NCBI GenBank assembly: GCA_021793275.1
Contig: JAJYTC010000027.1
Coordinates: 1-36,367 of the forward strand
Length of the DNA stretch: 36,367 nt
Direction of reading: 5' to 3'
Source of the DNA: Deltaproteobacteria bacterium
GTDB taxonomy: Bacteria > Desulfobacterota > Syntrophobacteria > Syntrophobacterales > Syntrophobacteraceae
The position numbers and the translations under genes are program-made. Shown here one piece after another: positions 3,621 to 4,896 of the stretch. The notes beneath the pieces were generated by a model, which did not search any database, was not told where the DNA came from, and saw nothing but the letters and a program-made list of their open reading frames with translations. Every line of letters begins with the position of its first letter. Within the stretch, counting starts at the first letter, position 1.

Positions 3621-3740
3621 AGTTCTCAATCCTAAGGCCTGTAAAGTTCAATTTCTTCAAACCCGCAATAATACACCAACTTCAACGCCAAGCGCCCCGA
3701 CCTCGTTTTCGGGCCCGGTCCTTGCCCGAATAAACTTCAG

Positions 3741-3974
3741 TTGGGCCGCCTCAGGCGCGAAAATATACAATCTCCGGCGGCAATAGGCAAGTTATACGTC
3801 AATGGGACGGTTGCTGCCTGCGGCAAGCATATCCACATGGAAGGCTTAAGAGATGTACTTCCTATAACTTACGATGAATTTGAGAATGTAGCCGAGGATA
3901 GGGCAAAATTCCGCCCCGATCTGATCGCGGCGTCCGCTCACGGCCCCGCAAATGTTTGCGAGGCCTGCCGCTGA
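3741..3974 (+). CDS. Possible small Cys/His-containing protein (uncertain)
   Basis: This frame is open from about 3672 to the TGA at 3974 and has protein-like composition, with CGKH near the middle and CEAC at the C-terminus that could bind a metal. No convincing start or ribosome site was seen: TTG at 3741 and ATG at 3837 are the only candidates. It is not recognised and may be a gene fragment. It lies between the divergent start of the FN3 gene and the 3' end of the HesB selenoprotein gene. Treat as doubtful. Confidence 0.25.
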   Translation: MGRLRRENIQSPAAIGKLYVNGTVAACGKHIHMEGLRDVLPITYDEFENVAEDRAKFRPDLIAASAHGPANVCEACR

Positions 3975-3993
3975 TCGCACCTTGCCCACAACT

Positions 3994-4299
3994 TCACGAA
4001 CAGGAACAACCGCCGCCGTAAACCGGAGATTCGGATACCACCCGGAAGCCAAAACCCATCCCGTAAGAGACACAATCGACCGTTATATCCCTGGTTCTTT
4101 GGTGAAGGTCCTTGTCGACCAGCATGGTAAAGCCGTTTATTTTATAGACATCATCTGTTTCTTTTGGTTCATCCAGAACCATCGCCAGGGATGGCCCCGA
4201 TCAGCCGCCGGTCTGGAGAATAATCCGGACGGGGCTGATCTGCTTATCCTTGAAATAATCTTTCAAAAGGTCTTCTGCTTTTTCTGACAGGCGAACCAT
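3994..4299 (-). CDS. HesB/IscA-like selenoprotein (in-frame UGA)
   Basis: Reading the minus strand from the ATG at 4299 gives 101 residues if the TGA at 4201-4203 (codon 33) is read as selenocysteine: MVRLSEKAEDLL...ILQTGG-U-SGPSLAMVLDEPKE...YGMGFGF...GGGCSCS. The sequence is continuous across the TGA and matches the HesB/IscA iron-sulfur carrier fold. The TGA sits where relatives have the first conserved Cys (GGCSGP), and the C-terminal pair is Cys98/Cys100. A HesB-related selenoprotein family (TIGR01911) is established. AAAGGAG precedes the ATG at good spacing. A hairpin follows the UGA directly. Probable role: Fe-S or related cluster handling, exact partner unknown. A conventional gene caller would report only a 62-residue piece from 4182. 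Confidence 0.88.
4173..4203 (-). promoter_or_regulatory. Candidate bacterial SECIS hairpin at UGA codon
   Basis: On the minus strand the UGA (4203-4201) is followed at once by an 11-bp stem (4200-4190 with 4183-4173, four pairs being G-U) closed by the six-nucleotide loop CCUGGC. Bacterial SECIS elements are stem-loops just 3' of the UGA with G residues in the apical loop that bind SelB. The loop GG here lies about 14 nt after the UGA, slightly nearer than in E. coli fdhF (18 nt by my count). Inference from folding by eye. Confidence 0.6.
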
Positions 4300-4321
4300 T
4301 AAACCAATCTCCTTTCCTCTG

Positions 4322-4331: not shown

Positions 4332-4896
4332 ACTCATCATTTCATCAAAGGAATTCGAAAACATTGCCGACGTCTTTACATCTGCGACCATGGACAGGCA
4401 ATTTTAAGAAAAGTGAGCATCTGTTTGATAGATCAAGATTCATGCCGTAGGGCCGGAAACGCTTTCTCCATCGGCACGGGCAAACGATGGATAAGCCGGG
4501 GCGACAGCCAAAAGTAACGTTACCTATGCCGAACGGTGAGCTTTAGTAACGTTACCGGACCGATCCCATTCCAGTCGCTCTCGCCACGGAAAGTTGATTT
4601 TGACTAAGGAACGCTTTCTTCGCGATCTTGCGCTGCGGACGGCACGGGCGATCAGTTTTTCCCTGTTCGGGTCTTGGCGGAGATGAGCACTCGCATACCT
4701 TAGCCACCTTTTACAGGCAAGTGAGATATAGCCTAGCGAAGGGAGTCTACCCTTCAGGCCTCGAAAAGGGCTTGCAGGAGAAGCTGCACGCAAGTTGATA
4801 CATATTGTCCGTAGGACTTTACGGTTAAGGATTGAGATTTAACAGCAGATCGGCAAATTGGAATTTGAGCGAAGGCAAGCTCGAAAGGAGAAAGCC
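4332..4896. other. Gene-free stretch with paired palindromes
   Basis: No convincing gene is seen. An open minus-strand frame at 4524-4793 has no ribosome site or domain. The stretch contains the two GTAACGTTAC palindromes reported separately, and the Shine-Dalgarno of the downstream gene at its end. Confidence 0.5.
4514..4555. promoter_or_regulatory. Two identical GTAACGTTAC palindromes, 32 bp apart
   Basis: The 12-mer AGTAACGTTACC occurs at 4513-4524 and again at 4545-4556; each contains the perfect palindrome GTAACGTTAC. The 32-bp spacing is close to three helical turns, placing both sites on one face of the DNA. The sequence with a central CG resembles operators of LacI/GalR-family repressors. 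The regulated gene is not obvious (nearest starts at 4299 minus and 4897 plus). Confidence 0.45.

Follow-up and report, generated by a model that had tools for sequence, protein, structure and literature searches.

The window analysed here, a contig of 36,367 nucleotides from a deltaproteobacterium of the family Syntrophobacteraceae, very probably carries a genuine IscA/HesB selenoprotein gene of the group described by the NCBIfam model NF038090, in which an in-frame UGA would be decoded as selenocysteine (Sec) through a bacterial SECIS element at positions 4181-4165. HesB-related selenoproteins are a known family, as a preliminary description of this DNA had pointed out (PMC1794560; PMC13188914), and the gene is a real and ordinary member of it; the place of the SECIS element and the existence of a paralogous copy are the additions made here. 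The features of the gene are collected in Table 1.

Table 1. Coordinates of the hesB-like selenoprotein gene and its features within the window.
Feature	Positions	Strand	Description	Basis
hesB-like selenoprotein CDS	3994..4299	-	101 amino acids and stop TGA at 3996-3994	frame and family match
In-frame TGA	4201..4203	-	codon 33, GGUSGP, putative Sec	translation and homolog alignment
Putative bacterial SECIS hairpin	4165..4181	-	6 bp, UGGUUC/GAACCA	conservation, recoding test
Ribosome binding site	4309..4314	-	AAGGAG, 9 nt 5' of ATG	sequence
C-terminal CxC	4000..4008	-	Cys98 and Cys100, other putative metal ligands	translation, homologs
Truncated ORF	3994..4182	-	62 amino acids, possible ordinary gene call	ORF list

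Translation of the minus strand from 4299 to 3994 meets TGA solely at codon 33 and at the final stop, confirming the frame and coordinates of the preliminary description, and the ribosome site that it had placed before the ATG was likewise found; many homologs also carry sites resembling AAGGAG ahead of their ATG. The C-terminal TGA, considered as a second Sec codon, was rejected because other homologs end in TAG or TAA at about the same place. The 62-residue ORF is the only one listed in the hesB frame, so that 39 of the 101 residues would be lost from annotation; furthermore, an antisense ORF of 111 residues (3952-4287, plus strand) is longer and could be called in place of hesB. The earlier statement that an ordinary gene call loses part of the gene therefore stands, and its extent, formerly given as the first third, is corrected to 39/101 residues or to a call on the wrong strand; in this sense, the case serves as a correction of annotation.

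Family membership was assessed with several profile models. The protein scores 112.2 bits against NF038090 (IscA_HesB_Se; cut-off 85; the query included an additional C derived from the stop codon), and the genome DNA, read through the TGA, reaches 104.8 bits with the same model, also above the cut-off. TIGR01911 (HesB_rel_seleno), the family to which the protein had been referred in the preliminary description and under which the HesB-like family is filed in PMC13188914, aligns with residues 2-83 (E 1.4e-12) at 48.1 bits, below its cut-off of 66.35; the protein is related to TIGR01911 and is not a member as that model defines membership, the NCBIfam model passed being NF038090. The latter appears to describe the same group as the HesB-like family of the cited papers. 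As a protein query, the sequence also passes PF01521 (Fe-S_biosyn; 31.4 bits, gathering cut-off 26.3), a model that did not report the window gene in a six-frame search of the genome, and it lies far under the cut-offs of the equivalogs IscA (33.2 against 150.6 bits), ErpA (26.1 against 117) and SufA (22.9 against 136.2). The best solved relatives by sequence are the Aquifex protein 1nwb and E. coli IscA. An AlphaFold2 model, built from 25 aligned sequences with the window protein among them, has a mean pLDDT of 80.8, residues 95-101 falling below 50 and the tail not being placed; a PDB search with the predicted fold gives ten matches at E <= 0.001, with IscA (1x0g, 1r94, 1s98) at the top and SufA (2d2a), DsrR and HI1723 among the others. 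The predicted fold and the three-ligand pattern would be shared with IscA, ErpA and SufA, which have Cys at the first ligand where the window protein has the putative Sec.

HesB-like selenoproteins of the NF038090 group resemble the window protein in length, in UxGP at the first ligand and in a bacterial SECIS after the UGA, whereas the window gene stands apart as a second, probably derived copy with a shorter C-terminal Cys tail. PMC1794560 reports 11 bacterial HesB-like selenoproteins, 2 Sec-to-Cys conversions and a SECIS-like remnant in a Cys form of Desulfitobacterium, and it names Syntrophobacter, Syntrophus and further Deltaproteobacteria among the carriers of HesB-like selenoproteins. 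Methanococcus maripaludis also has a HesB-like selenoprotein (MMJJ_08070), identified via mutagenesis and 75Se labelling, with a function called not clear in the paper (PMC11097638), but it is archaeal; in archaea, SECIS elements are mostly located in the 3' UTR (PMC13188914). No report on the window gene or on a second HesB copy was found among the titles and abstract beginnings of the papers returned by literature searches.

Codon 33 corresponds to the first metal-ligand position of IscA/HesB proteins, and the preliminary description had set the TGA at exactly this first Cys (GGCSGP). Of 30 family-level loci that were located by alignment, independently of their residue at codon 33, 28 have TGA there and 2 have Cys, so that the placement is borne out by every one of them; homologs with neither Cys nor Sec at this position, named at the outset as grounds for abandoning the claim, were absent from this set. 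The wider homolog set was selected for U or C at codon 33 and is thus no test of that position. We regard the identity of UGA codon 33 as Sec as nearly certain.

The apical loop of the putative SECIS, UGGAU, lies at 4175-4171, with a UGA-to-loop spacing of 25 nt, and the stem pairs positions 23-28 with positions 34-39 after the UGA. Among 55 distinct Sec homologs, 96.7% of the cells of this stem are paired, versus 92.9% (sd 0.6) in shuffled alignments and at most 52.1% when the stem is slid, counts inflated by related sequences. Pair 26-36 is C-G in 34 of these homologs, U-A in 20 and unpaired in 1; one pair covaries and there are three further pair types, neither count being above shuffles, while three pairs never vary and are therefore uninformative, and the outermost pair fails in 10 of the 55. 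The 5-bp core together with the GG loop is present in 69/70 Sec versus 1/10 Cys homologs, or in 71/72 and 1/12 when four distinct added homologs are included; a stem pair is missing from a single Sec homolog, L033. Five loci missed by the motif filter were inspected separately: L076 and L081 are Sec forms with core and loop, L066 is a further one but represents the gene L118, which the counts already include, L082 is a Cys form with the stem and without the GG loop, and L083 is a Cys form with no stem.

The third base of the codon preceding the loop Leu, a base that pairs in the stem, is U in 70/70 distinct Sec sequences (GCU in 37, GUU in 33), versus a mean of about 19% in the flanking ORFs, and the loop Leu codon itself is CUG in all 70. 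Synonymous recoding of the window gene matched the observed hairpin energy in 0/300 trials; at a level of <=5%, the same test was passed by 44 of 57 Sec rows (13 miss), distinct over 60 nt and many of them closely related, and by 0/8 Cys rows. In the window gene itself, the stretch after the UGA folds with no exceptional stability (z -1.04), and what supports the putative SECIS is its conservation, not the fold stability of the window sequence. The case gives the family a conserved, partly covarying candidate SECIS.

Against the bacterial SECIS model quoted in PMC13188914 (MFE <= -7.5 kcal/mol), the upper hairpin has an MFE of -6.8 kcal/mol, and 51 nt including a second stem have -14.5; the stem of 6 bp falls within 4-16 bp and the distance of 25 nt within 16-37 nt from the UGA, with UGGAU as loop. 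A GG-loop hairpin had originally been described as starting right after the UGA; the conserved one, at 23-39, is situated about 20 nt further downstream. Stems immediately after the UGA were rejected as SECIS for their poor conservation, that at 9-14/21-26 being 58.5% paired (55 homologs) and that at 4-9/14-19 being 53.3% paired; the latter reaches 70.0% if slid by one column, and thus a weaker structure may exist beside the UGA. A scan of the window with Rfam gave no match at gathering scores.

The genome (4.65 Mb in 278 contigs, 97% complete, 4.5% contamination) was searched for selA, selB, selC and selD, as the preliminary description had recommended when proposing that this organism decodes Sec, a proposal that it would have withdrawn for lack of selA, selB or selC. 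The proposal holds: a tRNA-Sec with anticodon UCA (74 bits; SeC(tca) in ARAGORN), selA (618 bits) and selD (379 bits, one in-frame TGA) were found, together with a C-terminal winged-helix piece of selB. This piece, with the wing domains PF09107/PF09106, opens contig C90 (L017 1-489), whose edge truncates the gene; the remainder lies outside the assembly or is unrecognised. The GTPase domain of SelB was not found in the genome assembly, and the selB matches on contigs C166, C235 and C226 were discarded as EF-Tu fragments at contig ends. Sec decoding is not surprising here, since selA is present in 359/395 genomes of the phylum. From the frame, the family, the predicted fold, the SECIS and most of the machinery, we infer Sec insertion at codon 33. 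Besides hesB, PF02662 (FlpD-type) has 19 matches in this genome (G000), 8 with one in-frame TGA, counted regardless of its position relative to the Sec site, and one more with TAA; the selenoproteome of this genome is perhaps large, as PMC1794560 reports for Syntrophobacter.

Two other readings of the UGA have to be weighed. The TGA could be a sequencing or assembly error, or the true stop of a pseudogene, with TGC or TGT as the ancestral codon: it is one base away from both, and Cys homologs exist, including the extra copies of sister species (L100, L106). Such an origin is nonetheless highly improbable, as 72 distinct homologs among those examined have TGA at codon 33, 71 of them together with the hairpin, and the second copy of the genome has the same TGA. 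The open frame alone would suit a UGA read as an amino acid other than Sec, or as Trp as in code 4, yet the window gene and several homologs end in TGA, interchangeable with TAG/TAA, a tRNA-Sec is present in the genome, and both family-level homologs without UGA have Cys at this codon; we give this reading hardly any credence.

In the phylum, NF038090 has matches in 220/395 genomes, 168 above the cut-off, and in the family in 26/26 genomes, all above it; the homolog counts given here cover the loci examined from these 220 genomes and leave out the second copies G395:C4, G408:C314 and G412:C216. Among the matches listed, at least 31 have no stop and the others one TGA, as read by eye. G206, with no selA match, has a hesB without stop (Cys), as expected. 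Four genomes among the matches listed combine a TGA-bearing hesB with no selA match (G042, G170, G272 and G388, with completeness of 67, 94, 99 and 73%, respectively), which may reflect gaps, a divergent selA or a real exception to a strict link. As a separate observation, four genomes from a different family in this order (G187, G211, G316, G334) carry Sec-hesB and selA on a single contig, no more than about 1.6 kb apart. In L085 (2371-5595; G187), the one examined, an MFS-transporter-like ORF on the opposite strand intervenes between hesB and selA, and an operon was rejected on that account. In L031, L037, L038, L039, L046, L059, L063 and L064, a Sec form and a Cys form of hesB stand in tandem, separated by no more than about 700 bp.

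The window gene is the second Sec-HesB gene of its genome and probably a derived copy. The sister copy (C124:19302-19607) sits between an RNase E/G gene and lspA; within the genus, six further genomes have lspA next to hesB as well (L109, L112, L114, L115, L123, L125); three of these are apparently the MAGs of L024-L026, and RNase E/G is also beside hesB in L109, L112, L115 and L125. None of the window neighbours tested (acyl-CoA dehydrogenase, PPOX, fn3 and others) was found beside the other loci. The dN to L024-L026, three relatives with hesB at this site, is about 0.10 for the window copy versus about 0.02 for the sister copy, with similar dS, and relative-rate tests gave p<0.05 in all four comparisons with L027 and L029 each and in three of four with L030 and L068 each; with L028 as outgroup none was significant. 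The derived status is proposed because relatives have hesB at the same site as the sister copy and the window copy has the higher rate of change, its dN/dS remaining well below 1. The family tree, whose bootstrap had not settled, did not resolve the ortholog of the window copy among the extra copies. Those of sister species are Cys forms, G413 (L100) keeping the hairpin and G411 (L106) having lost it, and the genus thereby offers a natural contrast of two extra Cys copies versus one keeping Sec and SECIS; in G401, which belongs to a different genus in the family, two copies are Sec forms (L117 and L124). Contamination was also considered and is unlikely: the one full-length aspS match of the genome lies on the window contig, which is therefore very likely the genome's own.

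The faster change of the window copy could be decay, that is, a duplicate whose role was lost and which is drifting with UGA and SECIS still there. The long branch (0.26, with 0.01 on the sister branch), 12 residues that none of 11 close relatives share (among them Cys in place of Tyr/Phe76 and Phe in place of Ala/Ser83) and a C-terminal tail shorter than that of the sister copy fit this view; however, the gene retains an intact frame, start, ribosome site, CxC tail and SECIS, the 8 of the 11 pairwise window comparisons that yield a dN/dS value give 0.06-0.18, averaged over both lineages, and the hairpin is stronger than the sister's (-6.8 versus -4.5). We consider decay unlikely.

In the preferred reading, that of a genuine selenoprotein gene, SelA and SelD would charge tRNA-Sec(UCA), SelB would bind the mRNA hairpin at 4181-4165, and UGA codon 33 would be decoded as Sec to give a 101-residue A-type-carrier-like protein, in which Sec33 with Cys98 and Cys100 may bind iron or an Fe-S cluster, or else another soft metal or redox partner. 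A role as Fe-S carrier has about even chances. Searches with PF01521 and NF038090 detected no canonical IscA, ErpA or SufA in the genome: PF01521 gave no match at E<=0.001, though 9/14 control genomes match, and it also missed both Sec-HesB genes, while NF038090 matches 8/14 control genomes, including E. coli, and here only the two Sec-HesB genes. This is a hint that an ordinary A-type carrier is absent. With no canonical carrier detected, two Sec-HesB genes kept, a new Cys and a trimmed Cys tail, it may tentatively be suggested, with considerable doubt, that the A-type Fe-S carrier job is done solely by Sec proteins and that the window copy, relocated, is diverging toward a separate role; if there is indeed no ordinary carrier, the genome would make a connection between selenium and the supply of Fe-S clusters open to test.

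Some observations concern the neighbouring DNA. The 12-nt sequence AGTAACGTTACC occurs twice without change, at 4513-4524 and 4545-4556, in the gap separating hesB from the divergent acyl-CoA dehydrogenase gene; the copies are 32 bp apart, each holding a perfect 10-bp palindrome. No other pair of this palindrome spaced 16-30 nt was found in the genome, and the pair is perhaps a candidate operator of a regulator. On the other side, an open frame of the plus strand (3675-3974; a 77-residue ORF at 3741-3974, open back to 3675) converges on hesB; it has no Pfam or NCBIfam match, and its translation contains ...GTVAACGKHIHMEGL...VCEACR.
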